Part shown: positions 1 to 14,796 of the stretch, one piece after another
Layout: each line of letters begins with the position of its first letter
Position numbering within the stretch: position 1 is the first letter of the stretch
Virus record (IMG/VR): IMGVR_UViG_3300046751_000076
Coordinates: 1-23,907 of that record
DNA length: 23,907 nucleotides
Source: a virus
Direction: 5' to 3' (one strand)
Notes under the pieces: generated by a model
Told to the model about the DNA's origin: nothing
What the model saw: only the letters and a program-made list of their open reading frames with translations
Databases searched by the model: none
Translations under genes and position numbers: made by a program

Positions 1-2
1 AT

Positions 3-62
3 ACTATCATAGAAAGAATACTAGAAGGTAAGATAAAAGTCAACCCTTCTGTAACGAGGTAA
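3..62 (+). CDS. C-terminal end of an upstream gene (partial)
   Basis: A frame open from the left edge encodes about 19 residues ending in KIKVNPSVTR and stops with TAA at 60-62, four bases before the next ATG. The tight spacing, same strand and charged, non-repetitive tail fit the end of a real upstream gene in the same operon. Too little is present to identify it. The other two forward frames stop early (10-12 and 29-31), so this is the only frame that reaches the next gene's ribosome binding site. Confidence 0.45.
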   Translation, partial: TIIERILEGKIKVNPSVTR

Positions 63-66
63 CGAC

Positions 67-945
67 ATGCCTATACGTAGAATCGGTGGAGTTACAGGTG
101 TATCCTCTATCAGTGGATTCGGGTCTGGAACTAAAGTCAAGCGAGTTACTGTCGGTCGTCCTATTAGTAATGTAGTTCAGAATATTGGGGCAAATATTAA
201 AACATTTGACGGTCTTGGTGATATACCCAGTATTGAAGAGTTAAAACTGGGCGAGATTGGTATAAATACTCAGGACGGTAAACTCTATATTAAACGAGAG
301 TATGACGGCGGTATTCAAACGATTGTAGAGATTGGCGCTGTAGGAGATGAGAGTCTCTCTGCGACAACTACATTTAACGCATACATTTACACCTCTGACG
401 GAACATTAGAGGTTATAACGGGATCAGACGACGCTGGGAATGTACTACAGTATGACCCAGACCCGAACAGTCCGTCAAGAATTCAAGTATATTTGAACGG
501 TGTCTTACTCCATCAAGGAATAGACTACGTTGCGAATGACGGGAGTACTATCTCCCTAACACATATTGTAGAAGCAGAACAAGTTGTACAAGTTGCCGCC
601 TACAATTCTACTGGCGTTTCTTTTGGAAACGACCTCATCATAGATGACCACTTTGCCTTTATTGTAGGCACCAACGAAGAAACTCGTTTTTATCATAATG
701 GTACTGACACTATTATTAAACATTTAGGTTTCAATGATAGTCAGTTCAAGATACAACACCAGAATGATGACAAACTTATCATGGATGACGCGGGAGTACA
801 GCTTCTAGGTAACTATACATTGAATGGACAAAGTGTCGCCACACAAATTGAAGTAGATGCATTACATACTAGAATTAATAATCTAGATAGTGACCTACAA
901 GAAGTTACGGAGTTATTGCAGGAACTACTACAGTTCAGGCAGTAA
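67..945 (+). CDS. Fibre-like virion structural protein (292 aa)
   Basis: Probable tail-fibre or virion surface protein. The ATG is preceded by GAGGT with 6-nt spacing. Residues 62-74 (GEIGINTQDGKLY) match the short motif repeated at the start of many phage fibre proteins. Residues 138-164 carry the YLNGVLL...GIDY...TISL pattern, a small beta module found repeatedly in fibre shafts. Residues about 190-250 are polar and beta-rich with a YHNGTD segment. The last about 35 residues (LHTRINNLDSDLQEVTELL) look like a coiled coil that could trimerise the protein or dock it on another fibre. The gene lies at the head of the fibre block. Exact role (fibre, adaptor or baseplate-attached protein) is not determined. 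The family is inferred from motifs only. Confidence 0.6.
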   Translation: MPIRRIGGVTGVSSISGFGSGTKVKRVTVGRPISNVVQNIGANIKTFDGLGDIPSIEELKLGEIGINTQDGKLYIKREYDGGIQTIVEIGAVGDESLSATTTFNAYIYTSDGTLEVITGSDDAGNVLQYDPDPNSPSRIQVYLNGVLLHQGIDYVANDGSTISLTHIVEAEQVVQVAAYNSTGVSFGNDLIIDDHFAFIVGTNEETRFYHNGTDTIIKHLGFNDSQFKIQHQNDDKLIMDDAGVQLLGNYTLNGQSVATQIEVDALHTRINNLDSDLQEVTELLQELLQFRQ

Positions 946-980
946 TAAAAAAATAACTTATTGGTTAAACTTGTTTTTGA

Positions 981-988
981 TATAAATA
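981..988 (+). promoter_or_regulatory. T4-type late promoter TATAAATA
   Basis: Perfect match to the T4 late promoter octamer, in the intergenic gap 36 nt before the ATG at 1025. It sits in the loop of a short inverted repeat (GTTTTT 973-978 with AAAAAC 988-993) nested in a second one (TGGTTAA 962-968 with TTAACCA 1000-1006). It probably drives the 119-aa gene and the two large fibre genes. The octamer is seen; late sigma (gp55-like) control is inferred from T4. Confidence 0.75.
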
Positions 989-1024
989 AAAACAGTATAT
1001 TAACCACTCTTAGTATTCCGAGAT

Positions 1025-1384
1025 ATGATCAATAATAAGTCCTTCAATAGGGTACTTGCCGAAAGTCTTTTTAACTTGGCCAAACAAAAGCAGGATCAAG
1101 TATCTGCAACTCCAGGTCAGGAAACCCAGATATTTGATCTTATCGAAGGCACCTCTTCATCAACCAATAAAGATACTATTATTCCTGAAGCACAAGCGTT
1201 TATCGCTCCAGGAGATACAGCACTCTTTACTCTGAATGGTACCCCAGTTCGTGATGACTTAATTGATGTGTGGGTGAATGATGTTCTTCAGCATCCTGAA
1301 GAAGTCTATGAAACCATCGGTAATACTATACAGTTTTTTGAGATCCCTCCGCAAGGAACGGACATCTACATTAAATTTCGTTAG
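1025..1384 (+). CDS. Small virion protein with a fibre-type beta module (119 aa)
   Basis: Unrecognised small protein in the fibre block. Residues 1-30 are helical and polar (FNRVLAESLFNLAKQKQDQ). Residues 64-119 form a module (TALFTLNGTP...DVWVNDVLQHPEEVY...IQFFEIPPQGTDIYIKF) that resembles the V-NGVLQ...Y...ITF...P-G...I module of fibre proteins. The same pattern occurs in the 292-aa protein upstream and near the C terminus of the 1970-aa fibre. The ATG has only a weak, close GAG in front of it, but it follows a perfect late promoter. It may be a fibre-attachment or fibre-tip accessory. Function is not established. Confidence 0.6.
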   Translation: MINNKSFNRVLAESLFNLAKQKQDQVSATPGQETQIFDLIEGTSSSTNKDTIIPEAQAFIAPGDTALFTLNGTPVRDDLIDVWVNDVLQHPEEVYETIGNTIQFFEIPPQGTDIYIKFR

Positions 1385-1385
1385 T

Positions 1386-1409
1386 ATATTATTAAACGTT
1401 TAATTATAT
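1386..1409. repeat. 24-nt near-perfect palindrome before the giant fibre gene
   Basis: ATTAAACGTTTAAT (1391-1404) is a perfect 14-bp palindrome. It extends to 24 nt with a single symmetric mismatch (ATAT at 1386-1389 pairs with ATAT at 1406-1409). It lies between the stop of the 119-aa gene and the ribosome binding site (TAGGAGAT) of the 1970-aa gene. There is no U-run of the terminator type after it. It could be an RNA hairpin, a protein-binding site or an AT-rich coincidence. Confidence 0.5.
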
Positions 1410-1446
1410 CCTCAAATCCAATAACACTAACTTAGGAGATAACCTA

Positions 1447-4400
1447 ATGGCATTTAGGCAGATTAAATCCCCAGCATTAGCGGACAAGGCGGTAATCAAT
1501 ACCAAACTTGACGAAAGTGCGGTACAGGGACAATCAACTCTAACGGGTATGTTAGACCCGTCTCAGTGTTTCACCCTACTATATGACGTAGGTACAGACT
1601 CACTGAAAAAGATTGGTGCAGACGCATTCTTCTCTTCATTCTCAACAGATGATCTAGCAGAAGGCGATAACCTTTACTACACACCATCTCGTGCGAACGC
1701 AGACGTTGCGGCACAGATTGATGCTGATGTATTAGTAGAGACAAATCGTGCACTAGCTGCAGAATCACTACTACAGTCTAATATCGACGCAGAAGCATCT
1801 ACTCGTTCTGCTGCTGATATTATACTACAATCAAATATCGACGCAGAGAATACACGTGCGGTTCTACGTGAAAACGCAATCGAAGCTGCATATCAATCAG
1901 CAGACGCGGCACTATCTGCTCGTATCGATCTAGTACTAAACAACACAGATTCAGACTCGCTTGATTCGTTCGCAGAAATCATCGAAGCATTCGAAGACGC
2001 AGATGATGTACTTTCTGGTTCAATCATTGCAAACAGTACTGCAATCTCTAACGAAGTTACTCGTGCAACTAATGCTGAACAAGCAATCGATGATCGTGTA
2101 ACTACAGAGATCTCTCGCGCACAATCTGCAGAATCTTCACTTGCTGGTCTAATCGGTGTAGAAGAAACTGCTCGTATCGCTGCTGACAACGCACTAGCAT
2201 CACGAATGACAACAGAAGAAGGCAATGTAGATCAACTACAATCAGACCTTGCTGCTGAGATCTCTCGTGCAACTGGCGCAGAATCGGTTATAGCTCAAAA
2301 CCTTTCGGACGAAATTACTCGTGCAGGTCTTGCAGAACAAGCAAACGCACAGAGCATCCAAGACGAAATCGCTGCTCGTGCAGTTGCTGACAACCAAGTC
2401 CGTACTGACCTAGGCGCAGATATCGTTACTGCAGAAAATGCTGCTAAGGCACACGCTGAAGCACAAGACGCACTAATGATCGGTGATGCAACTGTTGACG
2501 GTTCGACAAACAACACTGTCACAGATCGTATCGCAACTGCAAAAGCAGAAGCAATCACTGAATCAAGTAATAATGTTGCTATCGAGAACGCTGCTCGTAT
2601 TGCAGCTGACTCAGATCTAAACGCTCGCGTTGATCAAGAAATCATTGATCGTCTTGCTGGTGACGCTGCAAACTCAGCAGAAGTCGCCGCTGAGAAGACT
2701 CGTGCAGAAGGTGTTGAGGCAGGTCTACAATCACAAGTTGACTTCATCACATCAAACACTGATCCAGCCGCTCTTGATTCACTAACAGAAATCGTTGGTG
2801 CGTTCCAGTCTGCTGACTCAGATATGTCTGCTCTTATCGCATCTAACACGACTGCGATTACAAACGAAGCAAACGCTCGTTCGTCTGCAGATACTACTCT
2901 ACAGAGCAATATCGATACAGAAGCGTCAACTCGTTCAGCTGCCGACGCAAGTCTACAGTCTCAGATTGATCAACTAGAACTAGATCTTGATGTTTCTACA
3001 GAAGATGTACTTGCTGAAGCAAAGGCATACACAGATCAAGAAGCAGATGCACATCAAGCTGTTGCAATCGCACACGCTGATGCACAAGACGCTGCTCTAA
3101 TCGGTGACGCAACTGTAAACGGAACTGGTGGTAATACTGTCACTGACCGTATCGCAACTGCTAAGTCACAATCAATCGCTCACGCTAACACAATCGTTTC
3201 TGCTGAAGAAGCTGCTCGTATCGCTGCTGACACTGCACTGTCTCTACGTACTACTGTACTAGAAGACGAGATGGATGATGTTGAAGCACTTGCTGCTCAA
3301 AACGAAATCGATCTACGCGCAGAAGAAGTTGCTCGTGCTACTAAAGATTCGGACCTACAGGGTCAGTTGGATGCATTGAATGCAAACACTACAATCGATG
3401 TTGATGATCTACAAGCACAGATCACTGCGGAAGTTAACCGTGCATCAACTGCAGAGGGCGTTAACGCTGACGCAGTTGTTACAGAGCGTAATCGCGCAAC
3501 AAGTGTTGAACAAGGTCTACAGACTCAAGTCAACACTAACATCTCAAACATCTCGATTAATGCTGGTGATATCACAATCGAACGCACTCGTGCACTTGCT
3601 GCTGAACTAGGTCTAAGCAACCGTTTAGATACAGTAGAAGCAGACTTCAACGAAGCAGATTCCGATCTAAACGCTGCAATTCTTGCAGAAGTTGTTCGTG
3701 CATCTGGTGTTGAAGCGGGTCTACGTACAGACGTTGATTCTAACCAAGCACAAATTACTGCAAACGATTCAGATATCGCTGCTCTACAAAACTTAGTAGG
3801 TAACGATGTTGATGATCTACAAGCTCAGTTGGACGCAGAAGTTATTCGTGCTACTGCTGCTGAAGTAGTTAACGCAGACGCGATTGCGGCTGAAACTACT
3901 CGTGCGACAGGTGTTGAAGCAGGTCTACGCACTGACGTTGATTCTAACCAAGAACAAATCACTGCAAACGATTCAGACATCCTTGCACTTCAGATCCTAC
4001 AGGCATCTGATCACAATGATAACCAAGCACAGATCACTGCTGAAGTTAACCGTGCGACTGCCGCTGAAGGCGTCCTACAGTCTAACATCGATGCAGAAAA
4101 GACACGTGCTGAAGGTATCGAATCTGGTCTACGCACAGATGTAGATAGTGTACAGGCGCAGGTTACTGCAAACGATTCTGATATCCTTGCTCTACAAAGC
4201 CTACAAGCAGGTGATGTTACAGACCTACAGAACCAGTTAGACGCAGAAGTTTTACGTGCTACTGGTGTCGAAACTGGTATCCGTACAGACCTAACAACTC
4301 TAGAAGGTCGTGTTGACTTCATCGTTTCTAACGAAGATGGTGCTGCACTAGATTCACTAACAGAGATCGTTACTGCATTCCAAGACGCAGATTCAGATCT

Positions 4401-7359
4401 ACAAGGTGTTATCGATGCTAACGGTGGTCGTCTAACTACTCTAGAATCAGAAATGGACGCTGTTGAAGTTCGTGCTACTGACCTAGAAGCGAAAGATGTT
4501 GCTCACACAAACCGTCTAAACGGTCTAGATTCTGATCAACTAGTTCAGAACGGTCGTTTGAGTGGTGTTGAAGGTCGTGCAACTGCCCTAGAAACTAAGC
4601 AGGGTTCTGCACTTCTACACACAACTGCAACAAATGTTTCTGACGCGATTAACGAACTACATGCGGAACTAGACGGCGAAGCTGCTGATCTTACTGCACT
4701 AGAGAATCGTGTAACTACAGAAGAAGGTCATGTTGACGAACTACAGGCAGACATGGATGCTGTTGAAGCACGTGCTACTGCTCTAGAAGGTCGCGCAACT
4801 GTAAACGAAGGTGACATCGACGACCTAGAAACTAAGGTCGGAACTGCTACTCTAGCAACTGTTGCAACTGATCTATCTGCTGCTGTTAACGAACTGCACG
4901 CTGAACTAGACATAGAAGTTGGTGACCTAACTGCTCTAGAAGGTCGCGTAACTACTGCTGAAGGTGAGATCGATACACTGCAATCAGAAATGGATGCAGT
5001 AGAAGGTCGCGCAACTTCACTAGAATCACGCATGACAACTGAAGAAGGTCATGTTGATGTTCTACAGGGTCAGATGGGTACTTCTACTCTAGCAACTGTT
5101 GCGACAAATGTAACTGCTGCTGTAAACGAGTTACACACTCAAGCAGACTCTAATACTGGTCGTATCTCAACTCTAGAAACAGAGATGGATTCAATCGAAG
5201 GTCGTGGCGATTCCCTAGAATCTCGCATGGACGCGGTTGAGACTAAGAACACCGCACAAGATGGTCGTTTGACTGTCAACGAAGGTGACATCGACGCTCT
5301 AGAAACTAAGTTGGGTACTGGTGTATTCCAAACAACTGCACAGACAATCACTGGTGCAGTAAACGAAGTTCACGGTGAAGTAGACGCAGTAGAAGCTCGT
5401 ATGACTGCTGCCGAGTCTCGCGCAGACGCAGACAGTGACGCTCTAGTACAAGAGATCGCTGATCGTACTGCTGCAGATACACAGATCCGTATTGATCTAG
5501 CTGCTGACCGTACAACAGATCAGACAGACTACATCGCACGTGACGCAGTCGTTCTTGCATCTGCACAGACTTACGCAGAAAACGAAGCGGATGACGCAGA
5601 AGTTGCTGCTAAGACTTACGCAGACGGAATCGTTGCTAACGAAGCAACTCTACGTGAAAACGCAGATGATGTTCTAGATGGTAAGATCACAGCAGAAGCA
5701 AACGCTCGTGCTGCTGCCGACAATGCTCTAGATTCTCGTACTACTGTACTAGAAACAGAGATGTCTGCTACACAGTTGGGTGCAGGTCTTGCAACTGACG
5801 GAACTTATGTCACTCCAACAACAACTAACTACCTGAATGCATCTACTTCATTGGCAGATGCTGCTGCGAAACTAGACGCGGCAATCAAGGCGGTTGATAA
5901 CTCTCACAACGGAAACAAGGGTAACCTACAGTCACAGATTGACGCAGAAGTTGCATTCCGTGCTTCAGAAGATTCGGACATCCGTGCTTCACTAGCTGCT
6001 GAAGTTGCTCGTGCAACAGCGGCAGAAGTTGCCAACGGTGTACTAATCACAACTAACGCACAGTCAATCGTAGATGAGTCTACACGTGCACAGGGTGTTG
6101 AAGCATCACTACAGTCTCAGATCGACTTTGTCGTATCTAACACAGACTCTGCGGCACTTGATTCTCTAACAGAGATCGTTGCTGCACTACAGTCTGGAGA
6201 CGGTGATCTACTATCACTAATCCAAACTAACCAAACAGATATCGCTACTAACGCTTCTGGACTTGCACAAGAGATCATTGATCGTGCGGCACAGGGTGCG
6301 GCGATTCGTGGTGAGTTTGCTACTGCGGACGCAAACCTACAAACTCAAATTGATGCTCGTGTCAAGAAGTCAGGCGATTCAATGTCTGGTAACTTGGACA
6401 TGTCTGGCAACAAGGTTGAGGGTGTTGCGAACGGTACAGTACCGACAGACGCAGTAAACAAGGGTCAGTTGGACGCAGGTCTTGCGGCACAACATATCTC
6501 TCAGTTCACTACAGATGACGTTGCAGAAGGTGATAACCAATACTTCACAACAGAACGTGCTCGTGCTTCAGTATCTCTAACAGATGTTGAAGGTGCAGGT
6601 AAGGCATCTTACAACGCATCAACTGGTGTAATCTCAATCGACACTGCTAAGACTCTACTAGAACTTGCAGATGTTACTGATTCAGAATACGACGGTAAGA
6701 ATGGTTACGTCCTACGTGTAAATAACACTCTAGACGGAATGTCTCTACAAGATCCAACTCAGTTGGCATTCAACAACGCACAGCGTCAGACAATGGCTGG
6801 TGACGGTGCGCAGACTACATTCGCATTGAACTTCTATACGCAAGATCAAAACGCGATTGTATTCGTTGGTGGTGTTATTCAGGATCCAGGTACTCACTAC
6901 TCTATCGATGCGGTTAACCAGCAGATCACATTTAACAGTGCGATCCCAGTTGGCACACAGGCAGTAGTAATTGCTCAGTCTACTAACTCAGTTGGTGTAC
7001 TAGATCCTAAGTCGGTTGGTCTAGAAACTCTTGCAGACAACATCAAGGTGTTCGAGCAGGGTAACGACATCATTGCAGGAACATCTGCAACAGTCGTTTC
7101 GGCATTCAACAAAGAAACATATCGTTCTGCTAAGTACATCGTTACTGTAGAGAATGGTGGTGAGTTTGAGACTCGCGAATGTCTAGTTGTCCACGACGGA
7201 ACTAACGCATCAATCGTAGAATACGGTATCGTATTTACTGGATCTTCAGTACTAGGTGATACAGATGTACAAGTTAATGGTTCAAGTGTTGAACTATTAT
7301 ACACTGCTGAATCAGCAGGTGCTGTAGTTTCTGTCTCAGTAACTTACGTTGACGCATAA
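1447..7359 (+). CDS. Giant repetitive coiled-coil tail/collar fibre (1970 aa)
   Basis: Very long structural fibre. The start has TAGGAGAT 6 nt upstream. The N terminus (FRQIKSPALADKAV) is of the type opening many marine phage fibre genes. A YYT/YFT-type motif occurs at about residue 65 (DDLAEGDNLYYT) and again at about 1687 (DDVAEGDNQYFT). Residues about 90-1640 are Ala/Asp/Glu-rich heptad-like repeats (RATAAEG, LQSQID, VEAGLRTDVDS), predicted coiled coil. The shaft holds four ALDSLTEI-type modules (about residues 165, 431, 956, 1559), a 68-aa tandem array (nt 3718-4305) and a 79-aa tandem array (nt 4621-5385). KKSGDSMSGNLDMSGNKV at about 1640 is a common fibre motif. The C-terminal 190 residues are beta-type: GDGAQTTFALNF...FVGGVIQDPG (from about 1785) and AKYIVTVENGG...LVVHDG (from about 1895). 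No S74 chaperone is visible. It could be a long tail fibre, a neck fibre or a whisker analogue; structural role is confident, position on the virion is not. Confidence 0.85.
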   Translation: MAFRQIKSPALADKAVINTKLDESAVQGQSTLTGMLDPSQCFTLLYDVGTDSLKKIGADAFFSSFSTDDLAEGDNLYYTPSRANADVAAQIDADVLVETNRALAAESLLQSNIDAEASTRSAADIILQSNIDAENTRAVLRENAIEAAYQSADAALSARIDLVLNNTDSDSLDSFAEIIEAFEDADDVLSGSIIANSTAISNEVTRATNAEQAIDDRVTTEISRAQSAESSLAGLIGVEETARIAADNALASRMTTEEGNVDQLQSDLAAEISRATGAESVIAQNLSDEITRAGLAEQANAQSIQDEIAARAVADNQVRTDLGADIVTAENAAKAHAEAQDALMIGDATVDGSTNNTVTDRIATAKAEAITESSNNVAIENAARIAADSDLNARVDQEIIDRLAGDAANSAEVAAEKTRAEGVEAGLQSQVDFITSNTDPAALDSLTEIVGAFQSADSDMSALIASNTTAITNEANARSSADTTLQSNIDTEASTRSAADASLQSQIDQLELDLDVSTEDVLAEAKAYTDQEADAHQAVAIAHADAQDAALIGDATVNGTGGNTVTDRIATAKSQSIAHANTIVSAEEAARIAADTALSLRTTVLEDEMDDVEALAAQNEIDLRAEEVARATKDSDLQGQLDALNANTTIDVDDLQAQITAEVNRASTAEGVNADAVVTERNRATSVEQGLQTQVNTNISNISINAGDITIERTRALAAELGLSNRLDTVEADFNEADSDLNAAILAEVVRASGVEAGLRTDVDSNQAQITANDSDIAALQNLVGNDVDDLQAQLDAEVIRATAAEVVNADAIAAETTRATGVEAGLRTDVDSNQEQITANDSDILALQILQASDHNDNQAQITAEVNRATAAEGVLQSNIDAEKTRAEGIESGLRTDVDSVQAQVTANDSDILALQSLQAGDVTDLQNQLDAEVLRATGVETGIRTDLTTLEGRVDFIVSNEDGAALDSLTEIVTAFQDADSDLQGVIDANGGRLTTLESEMDAVEVRATDLEAKDVAHTNRLNGLDSDQLVQNGRLSGVEGRATALETKQGSALLHTTATNVSDAINELHAELDGEAADLTALENRVTTEEGHVDELQADMDAVEARATALEGRATVNEGDIDDLETKVGTATLATVATDLSAAVNELHAELDIEVGDLTALEGRVTTAEGEIDTLQSEMDAVEGRATSLESRMTTEEGHVDVLQGQMGTSTLATVATNVTAAVNELHTQADSNTGRISTLETEMDSIEGRGDSLESRMDAVETKNTAQDGRLTVNEGDIDALETKLGTGVFQTTAQTITGAVNEVHGEVDAVEARMTAAESRADADSDALVQEIADRTAADTQIRIDLAADRTTDQTDYIARDAVVLASAQTYAENEADDAEVAAKTYADGIVANEATLRENADDVLDGKITAEANARAAADNALDSRTTVLETEMSATQLGAGLATDGTYVTPTTTNYLNASTSLADAAAKLDAAIKAVDNSHNGNKGNLQSQIDAEVAFRASEDSDIRASLAAEVARATAAEVANGVLITTNAQSIVDESTRAQGVEASLQSQIDFVVSNTDSAALDSLTEIVAALQSGDGDLLSLIQTNQTDIATNASGLAQEIIDRAAQGAAIRGEFATADANLQTQIDARVKKSGDSMSGNLDMSGNKVEGVANGTVPTDAVNKGQLDAGLAAQHISQFTTDDVAEGDNQYFTTERARASVSLTDVEGAGKASYNASTGVISIDTAKTLLELADVTDSEYDGKNGYVLRVNNTLDGMSLQDPTQLAFNNAQRQTMAGDGAQTTFALNFYTQDQNAIVFVGGVIQDPGTHYSIDAVNQQITFNSAIPVGTQAVVIAQSTNSVGVLDPKSVGLETLADNIKVFEQGNDIIAGTSATVVSAFNKETYRSAKYIVTVENGGEFETRECLVVHDGTNASIVEYGIVFTGSSVLGDTDVQVNGSSVELLYTAESAGAVVSVSVTYVDA
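3718..4305 (+). repeat. In-frame tandem repeat, 204-bp (68-aa) period
   Basis: The GLRTDVDS block recurs at 3718, 3922 and 4126, exactly 204 bp apart. A diverged GIRTDL copy follows at 4276 after a shortened 150-bp unit. Each unit reads GLRTDVDS-(N/V)QxQ(I/V)TANDSDI-xALQ... followed by a QAQ(L/I)xAEVxRAT segment. The repeats encode coiled coil in the shaft of the 1970-aa fibre. They have diverged at synonymous sites. Confidence 0.85.
4621..5385 (+). repeat. In-frame tandem repeat, 237-bp (79-aa) period
   Basis: The NEL/VH block begins at 4651, 4888, 5125 and 5362, each exactly 237 bp apart. This defines three full 79-aa units (4675-4911, 4912-5148, 5149-5385) preceded by the end of a fourth. 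Each unit is a run of DLTALEGRVTTxEG-type coiled coil ending in a TxATxxxxAVNELHAELD turn segment. All indels between copies are absent or balanced, which suggests the unit length matters structurally. Confidence 0.88.
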
Positions 7360-7429: not shown

Positions 7430-10309
7430 ATGTCTACAAATAAAAAATTTAGAATACAGAACGGAGCCGATATCCACGGTGGTGGACTTTCCATCGACGA
7501 CGTTATTGTTATTGGTGCTGACGGCAAAGTTGTCGCAGGTGCCATCCAAGAAGCAGTAGCAGAGTTAACTGCTGCTGACATCGCAGACCTGCAAGCGCAA
7601 GTTACCGCGATTCTAGGTACGTCTCCAGAAACTCTGGATACATTACAAGAAATCGTAACTGCATTCCAAGATGCAGATACAAACCTAGTGGCAAGTGTTG
7701 CGTCTAACTCATCCGACATTGCTACGATTAACGCTACTTTAACAAGTGGTGTTGCGACTCCTGCTGATGTTGCTACACTTGACACTTTTGTTAAGGGTGA
7801 TGGAACTAGTCACTTTTATGTACCAGATGAAACATACTGGACTGTTAACACTAACGGATCAATTAGTGCTGAGGGTACGCTATTTATGTTGGCGAATCCG
7901 CCTTCAAACTCTACCTTTGGTGGTGCAATTGTAAACAGTGTTGCAGTAAAATCATCCGAACTATTAACGGTGGGTGAGGAGTATACTGTTTCGTTTTCTG
8001 GTGGTAAGGCAATCGGTGTCACCAATGCGGTTTGGAAAATTATTGTACATGGTGCCAACTTAACTTCATCATCAAGCATTATCGAAGAGTATGAGTTTAC
8101 ATCTTATGACGATCATAGTTTCACTTTCACCTCACCAGATGATCGTGTATACATTAGCATAACAACGCCTTCTGGTGACGAACCCCAGCGCGCAGCTTGG
8201 GTACGAAACCTTGACATCACCAGTCCTTCATCCCTAGACACAACTGCAACTCAGGTTGTTCCAGCGATCAACGAAGTACACGCTGAAGTCGATGCACTGA
8301 CCGTTGCTGTTGCAACTGCTAAGTCAGAAGCAATCTCAACTGCTGCTGCAGATGCGACTACTAAGGCAGATGACGCTAAAGCATATGCCGATCAAGTTGT
8401 CGCTGCAACTGTTGACGCCGCTCCTGCTGCACTGGATACTCTTAACGAGTTGGCAGCTGCACTAGGTGACGACGCAAACTTTGCATCAACTGTTACTGCA
8501 TCTATCGGATCAAACACTTCTGCAATTTCATCTTTAGATGTCTTTGTTGGTGATGGTCGTACTGGACCACCAAATGCTATCACTTCAATTGCGGCATCTA
8601 ACTGGACTGTGTTACAGTCAGGTATTACTATTACTGACAACCCAGACGGTAGCGTAACATTCACAACAGATGGATCTAACGCCGGTGAAATGGCGGAGAT
8701 TCTTGTTGATGTTGACAACGTTGCATACGAGTTTGCAGCAAACGTTGTTGGTTATCATGCAACTGCTCATTATCTTTCCACTAAACGAGCATCCGATAAT
8801 GCATCCATATCCGGATTTGCCTTTAATACGGGTGGTTCAGTTGGTGGAAATGGTAGTGGTTGGAGCAACACTAGCGGGTACGCAGATCAAGTAAAAGTTA
8901 TAATTACCTTTGGAACTGTTGCAGGCGGTACTAGTTGGACTTTCAATAGTATCAGTTTATATGACCCAGAGGCTGCTGACGCTCCTGCACTAGATACATC
9001 TGCTCAAACTATTGCGGATGCGGTCAACGAAGTACACGCAGAACTAGGCGCATTGTCTGCAACTCAGTCTGGAGATACTTCATCTCTAACATCTGCGATT
9101 GCAACAGCTAAGTCAGAAGCAATCTCAACTGCATCCGCTGACGCAACCGCGAAAGCAGACGCTGCTGAAACAGATGCCAAGGCATATGCTGATCAAGTCG
9201 TTGCGGCGACTGTAGATGCTGCTCCTGCGGCACTAGACACATTGAACGAACTAGCTGCGGCACTTGGTGACGACGCGAACTTCGCATCAACCGTTACTGA
9301 TTCAATTGCTACTAAGGCAAGTCAAGTAGACCATGACGCAGAAGTTGCTCGTGCAACTGCTGCTGAAGGCGTAAACGCTTCGGCAATTGCTGCAACGAAC
9401 GCACGTACTTCCGGTATCAGCACTTCTTCAGGTTCAACTGATATTCAGATGACTGCTGAAGTTGACATGGATAGTAACAAAGTTACTAACATGGCAGATC
9501 CAACTGCGGCACAAGATGCGGCAACTAAGGCATACGTTGATGCGGCATCAACTTCTTCAAGTAGTGATCTATCTGCTGAAACTGCGGCACGTATTGCTGC
9601 AGACACTAATTTGCAGTCTCAAATCACTGCACTAAGTGGTTCTACAGACGGCAAAGACAGTGATCTACAAGACGCAATCAATGCAGAAGAATCTGCGCGT
9701 ATCGCGGCAGACGCTGTCCTACAGAATAACATTGACGCAGAAGCGGCAGTTCGCGCCTCTGCAGATCTTGCTCTGACTGGCGATATCAGTGATGAAGCAG
9801 ATGCTCGTATCGCAGGCGATAACGCAATCACTGCAGCTCTAAACACAGAGATTGGTGATCGTCAATCTGGCGATAATGCACTTCAAACGCAAATCGATTT
9901 TATCACTTCTAACACTGATCCAGCTGCTCTAGATTCTCTAACAGAGATCGTCGCAGCATTCCAGTCGGCAGACGATAGTATTACAGGTGTTGTTACTTCT
10001 AACACCACACGCATCTCTGCACTAGAAGGTTCTGTAACAGGAATCGAAGCATGGAACACTGACAACGTATCTGAAGGTACAACGAACTTGTACTTCACAG
10101 ATGCACGTGCTAAGGCATGTTTGACAGGTGGTCTATGTATCACATACAACACAACAACTGGTGAAATTTCAGTTGACGAAACAGAAGCTGAGTCTTCACT
10201 ACGTGTTGCCGAGTCTGTTGCTTCAGATGACGCTGACAAGCTAGATGGTCAGGAAGGTACTTACTACCGTATCAACGTTTATAACGTTGCTGGTACTCTA
10301 GTCAACTAA
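7430..10309 (+). CDS. Coiled-coil fibre with two inserted lectin-like domains (959 aa)
   Basis: Fibre protein immediately upstream of gene 13, the position of T4 wac (fibritin). AAAGGT lies 8 nt before the ATG. The N terminus is FRIQNGADIHGGG. A coiled coil with a TLDTLQEIVTAFQDAD module follows. The shaft is interrupted by two beta-rich domains, residues about 120-267 and 371-519. Each enters after LDxFV and exits before LDT..Q...AxNEVHAE. Their YTVSF...FTFTS...VRNLDIT and NPDGSVTFTTDG...WTFNSISLYDP patterns suggest a galactose-binding-like jelly roll. A 62/66-aa segment follows each insert. Later come DMDSNKVTNMADP (about 679), an IDFITSNTDPAALDSLTEI module (822) and NTDNVSEGTTNLYFTDARA (about 876). 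The C terminus is DDADKLDGQEGTYYRI, a common fibre ending. It is probably receptor- or glycan-binding. Structural role is confident; the lectin fold is inferred. Confidence 0.83.
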   Translation: MSTNKKFRIQNGADIHGGGLSIDDVIVIGADGKVVAGAIQEAVAELTAADIADLQAQVTAILGTSPETLDTLQEIVTAFQDADTNLVASVASNSSDIATINATLTSGVATPADVATLDTFVKGDGTSHFYVPDETYWTVNTNGSISAEGTLFMLANPPSNSTFGGAIVNSVAVKSSELLTVGEEYTVSFSGGKAIGVTNAVWKIIVHGANLTSSSSIIEEYEFTSYDDHSFTFTSPDDRVYISITTPSGDEPQRAAWVRNLDITSPSSLDTTATQVVPAINEVHAEVDALTVAVATAKSEAISTAAADATTKADDAKAYADQVVAATVDAAPAALDTLNELAAALGDDANFASTVTASIGSNTSAISSLDVFVGDGRTGPPNAITSIAASNWTVLQSGITITDNPDGSVTFTTDGSNAGEMAEILVDVDNVAYEFAANVVGYHATAHYLSTKRASDNASISGFAFNTGGSVGGNGSGWSNTSGYADQVKVIITFGTVAGGTSWTFNSISLYDPEAADAPALDTSAQTIADAVNEVHAELGALSATQSGDTSSLTSAIATAKSEAISTASADATAKADAAETDAKAYADQVVAATVDAAPAALDTLNELAAALGDDANFASTVTDSIATKASQVDHDAEVARATAAEGVNASAIAATNARTSGISTSSGSTDIQMTAEVDMDSNKVTNMADPTAAQDAATKAYVDAASTSSSSDLSAETAARIAADTNLQSQITALSGSTDGKDSDLQDAINAEESARIAADAVLQNNIDAEAAVRASADLALTGDISDEADARIAGDNAITAALNTEIGDRQSGDNALQTQIDFITSNTDPAALDSLTEIVAAFQSADDSITGVVTSNTTRISALEGSVTGIEAWNTDNVSEGTTNLYFTDARAKACLTGGLCITYNTTTGEISVDETEAESSLRVAESVASDDADKLDGQEGTYYRINVYNVAGTLVN
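8312..8497 (+). repeat. Duplicated 62-aa coiled-coil segment, copy 1
   Basis: Encodes ATAKSEAIST...AKAYADQVVAATVDAAPAALDTLNELAAALGDDANFASTVT, and follows inserted domain 1. It is nearly identical in protein sequence to 9101-9298, but many codons differ (for example Leu-Asp-Thr-Leu-Asn-Glu-Leu uses different codons at most positions). The duplication is therefore old, or the DNA identity has been eroded while the protein was kept. Confidence 0.8.
9101..9298 (+). repeat. Duplicated 66-aa coiled-coil segment, copy 2
   Basis: Second copy of the segment at 8312-8497, following inserted domain 2, with four extra residues (around AAETDAKAYAD). Together with the inserts, this defines a large unit: insert domain, then NEVHAEL linker, then this coiled coil. 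Confidence 0.8.
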
Positions 10310-10328
10310 TCTGAGATTAGTGAATAAG

Positions 10329-10354
10329 AAAGGGGACTTCGGTCCCCTTTTTTT
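10329..10354 (+). terminator. Intrinsic terminator with UUCG tetraloop
   Basis: The stem AAAGGGGAC/GTCCCCTTT closes a C(UUCG)G tetraloop and runs straight into a T tract. It lies 20 nt after the 959-aa fibre stop and just before tandem late promoters, so it cleanly ends the fibre transcription unit. Confidence 0.93.
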
Positions 10355-10361
10355 ATATTTG

Positions 10362-10369
10362 TATAAATA
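10362..10369 (+). promoter_or_regulatory. T4-type late promoter, tandem copy 1
   Basis: Perfect TATAAATA followed by G, 8 nt after the terminator and 45 nt before the gp13 ATG. It starts the neck/terminase transcription unit. Its spacing to the second copy is 12 bp start to start. Confidence 0.8.
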
Positions 10370-10373
10370 GACG

Positions 10374-10381
10374 TATAAATA
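10374..10381 (+). promoter_or_regulatory. T4-type late promoter, tandem copy 2
   Basis: Second perfect TATAAATA (context GTATAAATAGA), 33 nt before the gp13 ATG. Both copies share the 10-mer GTATAAATAG. Initiation from either would give a short leader for gp13. Confidence 0.8.
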
Positions 10382-10406
10382 GAAATAATCTTTATTGGAC
10401 ACTAAC

Positions 10407-11177
10407 ATGTATTCTACTGACCGAGATGAATTGATAGATTATTGCTTGAGGGCGTTAGGTCACCCTGTCGTTGAGATAAACATTGACGAAGAGCAATTAG
10501 ACGATCGCATAGATGAAGCGTTACAGTGGTTTCGTGAACATCACCCAGACGGTTCTCGCCGTTACTATCTCAAGCACCAACTAACCGAACAAGATATTGA
10601 AAATAAGTATATTGACTTTGCTGATGATTTAGACTTGTCTGCGGTAGTTCGAATGTTGCCTATGTCTTGGACTGCAACCCAGTCAGGTTGGTTTAGTGAT
10701 GCATGGCAACTAGTCAAGTTTACTGTCACCGACTTTACAAGTGGTGGTGGTTATATGGCAGACCTTGCGCACTACGAATCTATGCAACAACATCTGTCAT
10801 TACTTGATATGAAACTAGTGGGCACACCACAGATTACATTCGACAGACAATACAACCGTGTCAATCTGCATATTTCGAAACACAATATGACAGAAGGTGA
10901 TTATGTCGTTTTTGAGGTTTATGGCATTCGAAACCCAGACGACTCAGTAAACGAATACAACTCTCTCTGGAACCACAAGTTTGTAAAAGAATACGCTACT
11001 GCGCTTATCAAAAGACAGTGGGGTCTCAATCTGATCAAGTTTGACGGTATGGTATTACCAGGCGGCACCACGGTCAATGCAAGGCAGATCTATGAAGATG
11101 CATTGCAAGACATAGAACGCATTATGACTAAATTTAGAGAAGAAGAGGACGAAGGTCCAATTTTCTTCATGGGGTAA
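10407..11177 (+). CDS. gp13: Neck protein gp13 (head completion)
   Basis: T4 gp13-type neck protein. In T4, gp13 and gp14 complete the filled head and form the neck to which the tail joins. The first residues after ATG (MYSTDRDELIDYCLRALGHP) and VEINIDEEQLDDRIDEALQWF are the recognisable family signature (LIDYxLRxLGxPVxEIN). The GGGYMADLAHYESMQQHLSLLD region is also typical. I chose ATG 10407 (256 aa) over an in-frame TTG at 10395: TTGGA lies 7 nt upstream of the ATG, the TTG has no ribosome binding site, and the family starts close to this residue. It is shorter than T4 gp13 (about 309 aa). It is the first gene after the tandem late promoters and is followed 3 nt later by gp14. Confidence 0.92.
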   Translation: MYSTDRDELIDYCLRALGHPVVEINIDEEQLDDRIDEALQWFREHHPDGSRRYYLKHQLTEQDIENKYIDFADDLDLSAVVRMLPMSWTATQSGWFSDAWQLVKFTVTDFTSGGGYMADLAHYESMQQHLSLLDMKLVGTPQITFDRQYNRVNLHISKHNMTEGDYVVFEVYGIRNPDDSVNEYNSLWNHKFVKEYATALIKRQWGLNLIKFDGMVLPGGTTVNARQIYEDALQDIERIMTKFREEEDEGPIFFMG

Positions 11178-11180
11178 GTT

Positions 11181-12065
11181 ATGGCTACTAACCCATATTT
11201 TTCACAGAAGTATCGTCCAGAACAAGACTTGTATGAAGATCTGATCATTGAGTCGATCAAGATGTATGGTCAGGATGTCTACTATCTACCTCGCGAGATT
11301 GTGGCGTCAGAGGACATCTTCCTTGACAGCATCCAGTCTCAGTTCTCTGACACCTACAAAGTAGAAGTGTACATCGAGAACACAGAAGGTTTCGAAGGCG
11401 AGGGCGATCTGTTCACTAAGTTCGGTATCGAATTACGAGATCAGGCAACGTTTGTTATCGCACGTCGTCGATGGAAACACTTGATTGGTGATCGTCTTTC
11501 AGATGCACAGTTCCGTCCACGTGAAGGTGATGTTATATACTTGCCGTTATCCGAATCATTATTCCAAGTTATGAAAGTAGAGACCGAGTCTCCTTTCTAT
11601 CAACTTTCTCAACTACCTCTGTTCCGTATGCAATGCGAGTTGTTCGAGTTCTCAGACGAAGACTTCGACACTGGTATTCCTGGAATTGATAATGTTGAAG
11701 TCGAAGGCGCATTCCAATACGAACTCAAGATGCCAGACGAAGGCATGGGTCGTGAGATCTATTACCTTGTCGGCGAAGATGTTTATCAAGAGTTCGATGA
11801 CTTCCGTCTTGAGGGCGAAGTCACTTCTTGGAATCACGACACGCGTATTCTCAAGATTGCACATACTGGCGGTACAGATGGTAAGTATCACGAGTGGGCA
11901 ACAGACAGACCTGTTATTGGTGAGTATGCGTCACTCACACCTATTTCTGAAGAAGAGGGGATCAACGAGATTGATCGTTTGGCGCAGAAACGCACCTTTG
12001 ATGACTTTGCAGAAGACTTCCTAGACTTCACAGAGTCTAATCCGTTTGGAGATCTAACACCATGA
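11181..12065 (+). CDS. gp14: Neck protein gp14 (head completion)
   Basis: T4 gp14-type neck protein, partner of gp13. The N terminus NPYFSQKYRPEQDLYEDLI with IKMYGQDVYYLPRE is the family signature. The middle FGIELRDQATFVIARRRW and FRPREGDVIYLPLSESLFQVMKVE is also conserved. The C-terminal half is acidic and contains a SEEEGINEIDRLAQKRTFDD segment. It is 294 aa, somewhat longer than T4 gp14 (about 256 aa). GGGGTAAG serves as ribosome binding site and overlaps the end of gp13. The stop overlaps the gp15 start as ATGA, indicating translational coupling. Confidence 0.93.
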   Translation: MATNPYFSQKYRPEQDLYEDLIIESIKMYGQDVYYLPREIVASEDIFLDSIQSQFSDTYKVEVYIENTEGFEGEGDLFTKFGIELRDQATFVIARRRWKHLIGDRLSDAQFRPREGDVIYLPLSESLFQVMKVETESPFYQLSQLPLFRMQCELFEFSDEDFDTGIPGIDNVEVEGAFQYELKMPDEGMGREIYYLVGEDVYQEFDDFRLEGEVTSWNHDTRILKIAHTGGTDGKYHEWATDRPVIGEYASLTPISEEEGINEIDRLAQKRTFDDFAEDFLDFTESNPFGDLTP

Positions 12066-12820
12066 TGGGCGGACACTTCTATCACAAACGTGTGCGCACT
12101 TGTGTTGCGCTGTTTGGTTCTATGTTTGATAACATCAATATACTGCGCACCGCATCAAGCGGAAAGGTATTATCTCAAGTAAAGGTGCCTCTGTCATATG
12201 CACCCGCCAGATCGTTCATAGAGCGTCTAGAGGAGATGACAAACGGCGAAGAAGCAGAACGCAGGGTCGCACTTAAACTTCCTAGGATGTCTTTCGAGAT
12301 CGTCTCCATCATATATGACCCTACTCGACAACTTCCTAAGATTAATAGTTATGTTACATCTAACGACGACTCTCAATTTCGCAGATATGTGGGCGTACCT
12401 TATACAATTAGTTTTGAACTTCACATTTATGCAAAGTCACAAGATGATGCGCTGCAAGTCGTAGAACAAGTCATACCATACTTTGCGCCGCAATATACGT
12501 TGACAGTCAAACCATTTACAGACGAACCTGATATCAAAGAAGACGTCCCTGTATCACTTGTTGGTGTCAATTTATCAGACGACTTCGAAGGCGCGATTGA
12601 ACAGAGACGAACTATTATATACACTCTATCGTTTGATATGAAGATGAACTTCTACGGTCCTGTACAGTCTGGACCAGTTATTCGCGAGGTTAATGTCGAT
12701 CTAAATACTAATGACAACGAGTTTGCGGAATTAATAACGGTGACTCCAGATCCGATTGATGTGACCCCAGACAGTGATTATGGTTTTAACTTGGTGATAA
12801 GTGATGAGAGACAATCGTAA
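12062..12820 (+). CDS. gp15: Tail terminator / sheath stabiliser gp15
   Basis: T4 gp15-type protein. It forms a hexamer that caps the tube and sheath and connects the tail to the neck. Residues 5-13 (HFYHKRVRT) and the following CVALFGSMFDNI and KVPLSYAPARSFIERL match the family. RMSFEIVSIIYDPTRQLPKIN and VPYTISFELHIYAKSQDDALQVVEQVIPYF are the conserved core. It is 252 aa, close to T4 (272 aa). The start is ATGATG; either ATG could serve, and the first overlaps the gp14 stop by 4 nt. The C-terminal 17 nt overlap gp16. Confidence 0.92.
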   Translation: MMGGHFYHKRVRTCVALFGSMFDNINILRTASSGKVLSQVKVPLSYAPARSFIERLEEMTNGEEAERRVALKLPRMSFEIVSIIYDPTRQLPKINSYVTSNDDSQFRRYVGVPYTISFELHIYAKSQDDALQVVEQVIPYFAPQYTLTVKPFTDEPDIKEDVPVSLVGVNLSDDFEGAIEQRRTIIYTLSFDMKMNFYGPVQSGPVIREVNVDLNTNDNEFAELITVTPDPIDVTPDSDYGFNLVISDERQS

Positions 12821-13187
12821 ACCACCTGGACTTTTTGACGAAGACCAGAAAAAGAACTTTGTCCATGAACAGGACTATGAGTACTCTCGCGATACTTACT
12901 ATGACTTAATTGAGAAAGGTCGCGAGTCCCTAGAACTCATGATTGAAGTCGCGCGGGAGAGTGAACACCCTCGTGCGTTTGAGGTTCTGTCTGGCATGAT
13001 CAAGGGCATCGCAGATGTCAATGACAAGTTGATGGACCTCAACAAGAAACAAAAAGAACTTCAGAAAGAAGACAAACCTGCCGAAGCAAAAACTACTAAT
13101 AATAATCTATTTGTCGGGTCTACTACAGAATTGCAGCGTATGCTGTTGGGTGATGAGAAAGTTATAGACCAAGACGAAGATGAGTAG
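12804..13187 (+). CDS. gp16: Small terminase subunit gp16
   Basis: T4 gp16-type small terminase, which regulates packaging and recognises concatemeric DNA. It is 127 aa from ATG 12804, shorter than T4 (164 aa). An in-frame GTG at 12801 is less likely because GGTGAT is best spaced for the ATG. The central helical region YDLIEKGRESLELMIEVARESEHPRAFEVLSGMIKGIADVNDKLMDL (given here as its landmarks ESLELMIEVA, HPRAFEV and DVNDKLMDL) is the typical coiled-coil oligomerisation core. A Lys/Glu-rich hinge and a C-terminal FVGSTTELQRMLLG follow. It overlaps gp15 by 17 nt and gp17 by 8 nt. Confidence 0.88.
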   Translation: MRDNRKPPGLFDEDQKKNFVHEQDYEYSRDTYYDLIEKGRESLELMIEVARESEHPRAFEVLSGMIKGIADVNDKLMDLNKKQKELQKEDKPAEAKTTNNNLFVGSTTELQRMLLGDEKVIDQDEDE

Positions 13188-14796
13188 TTATACAAAAGAA
13201 TCTTACCTCGGAAATCCTAACGTAAAAAGAGATGGTGTCGCAGAAGAATGGGACGCCAAGAAGCTGCGTGAGTATAAGAAATGCATGAAGGACCCATCAT
13301 ATTTCTGTAAGAAGTATGTCAAGGTCATTCACCTAGACAAGGGTCTCGTGCCGTTCAAACTCTATCCGTATCAGGAAAAGATGTTCGAACACTTCAACAA
13401 CAACCGATTCAATATCGTATTGGCATGTCGTCAGTCCGGTAAGTCTATCAGTTCGGTTGGTTACTTGTTGTGGTACGCACTCTTTCACCCAGAGAAGACC
13501 ATCGCGATCCTCGCGAACAAAGGTATGACTGCAAGAGAGATGCTGGCGCGTGTCACGCTTATGTTAGAGAATCTGCCGTTCTTTCTTCAGCCAGGATGTA
13601 AGGCGCTCAACAAAGGTTCTATAGAACTGTCCAACAACTCTCGTATCATCGCTGCGGCAACATCCGGTTCGTCTATTCGTGGTATGTCAGTCAACCTTCT
13701 ATTCCTAGATGAGTTTGCGTTTGTCGAAAACGCTGCTGAGTTCTACACGTCGACCTATCCGGTAATCTCATCGGGTAAGGACACAAAAGTTATAATAACA
13801 AGTACCGCGAATGGTATCGGTAATACTTATCATAAGATCTGGGAAGGTGCCGTACAAGGTGTGAACGAATACAAACCATTTCGTGTGGATTGGTGGGACG
13901 TTCCAGGACGTGATGAGAAGTGGAAAGAACAAACGATTGCAAACACATCTAGTCTACAGTTTGATCAAGAATTCGGAAATACATTCTTCGGGACAGGTAA
14001 TACACTGATCGAAGGACAGGTGTTGTTAGACTTGAGGTCACGCGCACCTCTATCACACCACGAGGGTGGTAGTCTGCTGATATACGAAGAACCTGTAGAA
14101 GATCACATGTACATCATGACTGTGGATGTTAGTAAGGGTAGAGGACAGGACTACTCGACATTTACGGTAATCGACGTTTCACAAAGGCCATTCAAACAAG
14201 TTTGTGTATATCGAAACAATTCTATTTCTCCAATACTCTACCCGAACATTATTTATAAGTATGGCACTCTTTATAACGAAGCATATGTAATTATCGAAAA
14301 TAATGATGCAGGGATACTTGTGTGTCAAGGTCTATATCAAGACCTAGAATATGAAAACATACACCTAGAGTCTGCGGTCAAATCAGACGCTATCGGTGTC
14401 ACGATGAACAGAAAGACCAAACGCATAGGGTGCTCTGGGATCAAAGACATTTTAGAAACAGGTAAACTAGAAGTCGTAGACGAAAACACGATTATGGAAA
14501 TCTCAACGTTTGTTTCTAAAGGACAGTCGTATGAAGCGAGTGATGGTAACCACGACGACTTGATGATGAACCTAGTGATGTTTGGTTACTACTTGAGCAC
14601 ACAGTCTTTCGGTGACCTATATGACGTAGACCTGAAGTCTATGTTGTTTGAACAACGAATGAAAGAAATAGAAGACGATATACTACCATTTGGTATAATA
14701 GATGACGGTCGGGACTTCGTTCCAGAAGCAGAAGTACTGCATCCTGGATTTGGGTGGCAGCTGCCAGATCGCACTGCAGAAGACGATTTTTGGTAA
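13180..14796 (+). CDS. gp17: Large terminase subunit gp17 (ATPase/nuclease)
   Basis: DNA-packaging motor, 538 aa. The N-terminal ATPase has Walker A CRQSGKS (residues 83-89, Lys88), Walker B LLFLDE (Asp177-Glu178) and a coupling motif TSTANG. The C-terminal RNase H-like nuclease keeps its acidic triad: Asp316 in MTVDVSKGRGQDYS, Glu373 in VIIENNDAG and Asp459/460 in NHDDL. All catalytic residues are present, so the enzyme should be active. It is shorter than T4 gp17 (610 aa), as in marine T4-like phages. It works with gp16 and docks on the gp20 portal. It starts inside the end of gp16 (8-nt overlap) and ends the neck/terminase unit. A late promoter for gp18 follows 12 nt downstream, with no obvious terminator between. 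Confidence 0.97.
   Translation: MSSYTKESYLGNPNVKRDGVAEEWDAKKLREYKKCMKDPSYFCKKYVKVIHLDKGLVPFKLYPYQEKMFEHFNNNRFNIVLACRQSGKSISSVGYLLWYALFHPEKTIAILANKGMTAREMLARVTLMLENLPFFLQPGCKALNKGSIELSNNSRIIAAATSGSSIRGMSVNLLFLDEFAFVENAAEFYTSTYPVISSGKDTKVIITSTANGIGNTYHKIWEGAVQGVNEYKPFRVDWWDVPGRDEKWKEQTIANTSSLQFDQEFGNTFFGTGNTLIEGQVLLDLRSRAPLSHHEGGSLLIYEEPVEDHMYIMTVDVSKGRGQDYSTFTVIDVSQRPFKQVCVYRNNSISPILYPNIIYKYGTLYNEAYVIIENNDAGILVCQGLYQDLEYENIHLESAVKSDAIGVTMNRKTKRIGCSGIKDILETGKLEVVDENTIMEISTFVSKGQSYEASDGNHDDLMMNLVMFGYYLSTQSFGDLYDVDLKSMLFEQRMKEIEDDILPFGIIDDGRDFVPEAEVLHPGFGWQLPDRTAEDDFW

Follow-up and report, generated by a model that had tools for sequence, protein, structure and literature searches.

Exchangeable, predicted CBM-like modules at recurrent sockets in a coiled-coil fibre of a probable marine T4-like myovirus

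It is well established that carbohydrate-binding modules (CBMs) occur in and on virion proteins (PMC6669499), and that T4-like phages shuffle modules of their adhesins (gp37/gp38) and swap the C-termini of fibritin (PMC3797505). In the lactococcal 936 siphophages CBM-like domains are found in the ‘evolved’ Dit, in an extension of the major tail protein and in the neck-passage fibres, whose triple helices they terminate, and these CBMs resemble BppA (PMC6669499). The very long fibrous part of the fibritin of AehI was proposed to act in host recognition (PMC3797505), and in pelagimyophages the host recognition cluster that precedes gp14 is hypervariable (PMC7029224). The fibre described here resembles the evolved Dit in holding CBM-like domains within a conserved virion protein, present in some phages and missing in others. 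The carriers differ, however: Dit, major tail protein and neck fibres in the 936 phages, and here a coiled-coil fibre of an apparent T4-like myovirus, with several internal sockets and at least two unrelated fold classes. With T4 gp37/gp38 and fibritin it shares modules that are exchanged laterally within otherwise conserved T4-like fibre genes, a segmented coiled-coil shaft and a fibritin-like gene position. However, what is exchanged in those systems is either the C-terminus or a distinct tip adhesin, while here internal parts of the shaft vary between two conserved ends, and the fibritin swaps are described as ancient, whereas here near-isogenic phages differ. As in the host recognition cluster of pelagimyophages and cyanomyophages, a hypervariable region of fibre genes immediately precedes the neck genes in marine T4-like phages, but there the variability is at the level of genes (PMC7029224) and here domains are exchanged at a defined socket within one gene. 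A diversity-generating retroelement would produce point diversification, in contrast to the whole-domain replacement seen here. Several internal sockets on one shaft, filled with different folds and swapped between near-isogenic phages, were not found in the literature searched, which had most subscription journals outside its reach.

The window (the whole 23.9-kb virus record that was analysed) contains T4-type neck, terminase, sheath and portal genes according to PHROG matches. The portal shares 83% identity with its counterpart in phage C48C1, the nearest named relative, which has Kyanoviridae in its taxonomy line, and ~54% with pelagiphage and cyanophage portals, so that the source is most likely a marine T4-like myovirus. 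Related records are referred to by L-numbers, and all of them except C48C1 are metagenomic. The fibre ORF (7430-10309, + strand, as are all features below) encodes a coiled-coil protein of 959 aa with matches to tail-fibre PHROGs, and is followed directly by the head-tail adaptor and Hc2 genes, in a gene order identical to that of C48C1. By sequence the shaft resembles solved phage fibre, collar and needle proteins, with short stretches of the ORF matching the fibre/collar proteins 9d93 gp4, 23sh gp9 and 6v8i gp68. We rejected an identity as evolved Dit for the carrier, as it matches tail-fibre PHROGs and fibre/collar structures and not Dit.

The position directly upstream of gp13/gp14-type neck genes is that of T4 fibritin (wac), and this raises the possibility that the protein is a whisker, or collar fibre, instead of a tail fibre, its modules on the neck acting as auxiliary adhesins or environmental sensors. 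Fibritins are likewise segmented coiled coils with C-terminal module swaps, extended in AehI by the long fibrous part (PMC3797505), and CBMs sit at the ends of the lactococcal neck-passage fibres (PMC6669499). Nevertheless, Pfam, PHROG and PDB sequence searches returned no fibritin similarity, including the C-terminal foldon, although distant versions may escape these searches, and in pelagimyophages the same region is the host recognition cluster, with its tail fibres (PMC7029224). A collar location thus seems somewhat unlikely; it bears on where in the virion the fibre sits and does not conflict with the socket model that we propose below.

The initial annotation had described two domains unlike the Ala-rich shaft, and their composition confirms this, with limits that fall within 1-6 residues of those given then. 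Alanine makes up 6% of module 1 and 13% of module 2, against 23-29% of the shaft after the first socket and 17% of the N-terminal 116 aa, while W, Y, F, H, P and C together account for 18% and 15% of the two modules and for 4-5% of the shaft. A foreign base composition of the modules was rejected, since their GC content is 43-44% compared with 45-49% in the rest of the fibre and GC3 is similar. Both modules are entered through LDxFV(K/G)G and left through LDT-A----(A/P)A(I/V)NEVHAE, so the same-register insertion originally noted, after LDxFV and before the NEVHAE motif, holds for the two of them. Socket 1 consists of the entry motif LDTFVKG (aa 117-123; 7778-7798), module 1 (aa 124-267; 7799-8230) and the exit SLDTTATQVVPAINEVHAEVDAL plus a helix (8231-8299), and leads into the first copy of a shaft repeat (8305-8505). 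Socket 2 is built from the entry motif LDVFVGDG (aa 369-376; 8534-8557), module 2 (aa 377-520; 8558-8989) and the exit LDTSAQTIADAVNEVHAELGAL plus a helix (8990-9055), with the second shaft repeat copy downstream (9094-9306). Both exits, LDTTATQVVPAINEVHAE and LDTSAQTIADAVNEVHAE, are recognised by an exit-motif profile, and the two repeat copies (direct repeats D2/D3) are 78% identical. The ends of the fibre are its more conserved parts among relatives, the C-terminal end (9884-10306) being 55-88% identical in the alignment.

In a set of 25 non-redundant complete fibres, variable globular segments picked by composition alone were followed by the exit motif in every case (17/17; two ‘other’ rows of the set are native beta segments of the fibre itself, and the start positions of several modules were set by eye), and therefore the register is shared more than expected by chance. 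Searched with the exit-motif profile, related fibres yield numerous copies, some empty and some filled. At the position of socket 1 the fibre of L215, a more distant relative, has an empty socket, LETFVKG-GA-SLSTVATNVVPAINELVSEV, i.e. ATPADISGLDSDIGVLETFVKG-GA-SLSTVATNVVPAINELVSEV, while the window has ATPADVATLDTFVKG-[module]-SLDTTATQVVPAINEVHAEV. Judging from this alignment of an empty with a filled socket, the module stands in place of a short loop of two or three residues that joins coiled-coil segments. Empty sockets are also found in the short collagen-like fibres of L142, L023, L140 and L143. There the socket runs straight into a GPT-type collagen-like stretch (L023 5580, L140 2254, L142 5935 and 9508, L143 1187), and L142 has three ORFs with the same N-terminus as these collagen-like fibres. 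A peptide of socket plus shaft had no match in annotated phages, and DNA scans with the entry motif returned mostly unrelated matches and added no new module family to the module profiles.

What are the modules then? AlphaFold models of both are beta-sandwiches, with mean pLDDT of 53 for module 1 and 66 for module 2; the underlying alignments are shallow (3 and 6 aligned sequences, respectively) and model confidence is modest. Top PDB matches in Foldseek and VIA-align are mostly CBMs and other galactose-binding-like domains and span most of the insert. The module 2 model aligns with the C-terminal part of arabinanase EndoMA1 (Z 12.0), with CBM29 (11.6) and with CBA120 tailspike 4 and a porphyran-binding CBM (11.5), and that of module 1 with EndoMA1 (9.9) and the porphyran-binding CBM (9.8). 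Measured against a background best Z of 7-8, the predicted fold match appears clear for module 2 and suggestive for module 1, which is only modestly above that background. Similar domains, some labelled CenC-like or CBM6, were found in many phage tail proteins when predicted viral structures were searched with module 2. Pfam scans of both modules and 18 others gave no CBM model above the cut-off, and we therefore call the modules CBM-like and assign no CBM family. The galactose-binding-like CBM type proposed initially is thus supported as a predicted fold, with modest confidence.

The two modules share little sequence, as had been suggested, their best local match being 11 aa long (E 0.13); duplication of one module into two was rejected, as they are without similarity to each other. 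Their near-equal length (about 148 aa in the initial annotation) is probably a coincidence, because other socket modules measure 114-183 aa or 400-463 aa. Module 2 has remote relatives in other sockets, namely L148m1 (phmmer E 4e-5), L148m2, L149m, L150m2 and L169m2, while a sequence profile of module 2 and its relatives retrieved neither a solved structure from the PDB nor a relative from bacterial or archaeal genomes. Neither module has a close relative in IMG/VR and annotated phages, where the only match was one of 28% (E 0.2) to an Acinetobacter phage tail protein. Other equivalent sockets hold domains of 400-460 aa, two of which score as FG-GAP_2 propellers (L173 1.6e-12, L191 7.4e-7), so that, counting the CBM-like sandwiches, no fewer than two fold classes are accommodated by these sockets. 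In L028, L144, L139, L140 and L102, fibres that share the N-terminal motif reach 2100-3300 aa and contain several globular blocks of about 400-600 aa; among four such long fibres scanned, a Pfam match came only from L144 (FG-GAP_2, E 0.001). In 13 of 19 small modules a tryptophan, often preceded by S, T, D, E or N, lies 16-55 residues downstream from the beginning of the entry motif, and its recurrence in otherwise dissimilar small modules is possibly a hallmark of the fold.

The phages closest to the window lack both modules. L103, the closest together with L096, has an adaptor 99.2% and an Hc2 97.6% identical to those of the window (98.1% and 94.2% in L096). The DNA of L103 and L096 follows the window collinearly as far as 7774-7777 and resumes at 9348-9374, and the 1.57-1.6 kb of the window in between correspond to 28 nt in L096 and L097 (block 7778-9347 by collinear blastn, left edge aligned) or to 46 nt in L103 (window 7775-9373). 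The similarity to L096/L097 ends with the base that immediately precedes the LDTFVKG codons. The C48C1 fibre orthologue, of 594 aa, is also without modules, and L168 and L169, with neck proteins 100% identical and 1111 nt after the site 100% identical, differ in a module present in L168 only. Separate datasets repeat the arrangement, L096/L097 without modules and L231/L232 with them. The possibility raised in the initial annotation that homologues hold these regions as inseparable parts of the shaft is thereby answered in the negative. In L006 and L169 (contig IMGVR_UViG_3300050343_000117) the fibre frame is split into ORFs of 355 aa and 1319 aa; the split falls within the propeller-like stretch of the first socket and may be a frameshift, an assembly error or a broken gene.

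Altogether 8 of the 25 non-redundant complete fibres carry one to three modules and 17 carry none, so the modules are not essential for infection. This agrees with a reading in which they bind an abundant polysaccharide matrix, such as marine gels, mucus or particle and algal glycans, increasing encounter or retention without setting host range. The porphyran-binding CBM (8xmz) is among the best structural matches, and porphyran is a marine algal polysaccharide; furthermore, the distal CBM of the neck fibre of phage A-1(L) does not bind host cells (PMC10966104). We consider matrix binding in place of a host receptor unlikely, however, as near-isogenic phages swap unrelated modules rapidly, a pattern better matched by selection on specificity than by generic adhesion, and a ligand cannot be read from similarity of fold.

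Such swaps are seen in L182 and L191, whose neck proteins are 99% identical. Four blocks of their fibre backbone DNA, stopping no more than about 12 residues from the module edges, match at 90-98% identity. In none of the three sockets do the contents align as DNA; at the protein level both pairs of small modules are unrelated and the propeller pair is 24% identical over about 200 aa. At socket 2 the DNA match between the window and L169 runs to aa 376, is lost over the module and returns at aa 520. A conserved backbone with a replaced domain, the mark of a modular phage fibre, is thus found in L182/L191, in L168/L169 and in the window with L103 and L096: near-isogenic phages share the socket, differ in whether a module is present, and have exchanged its contents. 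Modules also spread between lineages, since L168m and L150m3 are 84% identical in amino acids while the fibre C-terminal ends of the same phages are 43% identical. In L231 and L211 the last 2 kb of the fibre are 99% identical in nucleotides, against 87% identity for the adaptor and 74% for Hc2. In related phages the socket is found empty, occupied or differently occupied, which supports the initial suggestion of interchangeable modules in one socket. The exchange probably proceeds by homologous recombination in conserved shaft DNA, for which the repeated shaft, with its 78% identical copies, offers homology.

Repeats of this kind could also have led assemblers to join unrelated pieces of fibre genes, as all records but C48C1 are metagenomic, the shafts are repetitive and metagenomic contigs can be chimeric. 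An assembly artefact is nonetheless extremely unlikely, in our opinion: the shaft copies of the window are too divergent to be readily confused during assembly, the modules keep the reading frame, the socket rule has held in every segment, and the pattern recurs in many independent assemblies. The inserts might instead be structural, as knobs or spacers that adjust the length, bend or stability of the fibre or as docking points for other virion proteins, with no ligand of their own. Many related fibres do have beta modules of their own type (‘nativebeta’) between coiled-coil stretches, and so beta domains in these shafts need not be binders. A structural or docking part should be conserved, however, and the socket contents are unrelated in near-isogenic phages, with 114-aa sandwiches at one extreme of size and 460-aa propellers at the other; moreover, the best-matching folds are binding folds, so a purely structural role is quite improbable.

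We consider it likely that the protein is a coiled-coil display fibre, probably trimeric, in which an inter-segment loop docks interchangeable, probably glycan-binding domains that are exchanged through recombination. The carrier would be a long fibre of a marine T4-like myovirus, and the short loop between two of its coiled-coil segments would serve as the docking site at which whole globular domains are inserted in frame, those of the window being predicted galactose-binding-like beta-sandwiches of carbohydrate-binding-module type. The modules would project sideways, each socket holding three of them should the fibre be trimeric, and would bind cell-surface or matrix glycans, providing extra adhesion sites along the fibre, while the conserved ends would maintain the interface with the virion and any fixed function of the tip as the modules vary. 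Gain, loss and replacement of modules together with their linkers would probably occur via homologous recombination in the flanking conserved, repeated shaft. The fold here is predicted with modest confidence, and the trimeric state, glycan binding and any effect on adsorption or host range we infer. Several receptor specificities on one fibre, as initially suggested, are plausible with such putative binding modules, and the primary receptor binder may be another fibre.

If the modules bind, adhesion would be varied along the fibre and not at its tip, and could be changed by importing a ready-made domain via conserved shaft DNA, which would help to explain why the host-recognition loci of marine myoviruses turn over quickly. 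One would then expect different adhesion targets in near-isogenic phages whose socket contents are their sole difference. More tentatively, and with somewhat less than an even chance in our view, a standing pool of folded modules (CBM-like sandwiches and FG-GAP propellers) may circulate among marine T4-like phages, with up to three per fibre at standard shaft sockets, setting host or surface specificity combinatorially while both fibre ends stay fixed. If so, this would be a natural plug-in display system with a layout opposite to that of tip-based tail fibres. The socket itself indicates a natural point at which a folded domain can be built into a coiled-coil fibre.

Socket motifs are not confined to the fibre ORF. 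The upstream ORF (1447-7359; 1970 aa) is almost all coiled coil, in a style like that of the fibre ORF, and has three empty socket motifs at aa 1057, 1136 and 1215, e.g. LETKVGTATLATVATDLSAAVNELHAELD. A stretch of its shaft shows sequence similarity to gp26, the tail needle of P22-like phages (PDB 4lin, E 1.8e-8; also 3c9i), another coiled-coil virion protein, the likeness being limited to the coiled-coil type and to a short stretch. We know of no side-mounted inserts in the gp26 shaft. At the place of the 1970-aa ORF, relatives have long coiled-coil ORFs of 1300-1830 aa, some of them cut by contig ends. Another contig, L002, is 98.4% identical over its positions 1-4174 to 9391-13563 of the window; the match starts just 3' of the two-module block, where the contig ends.
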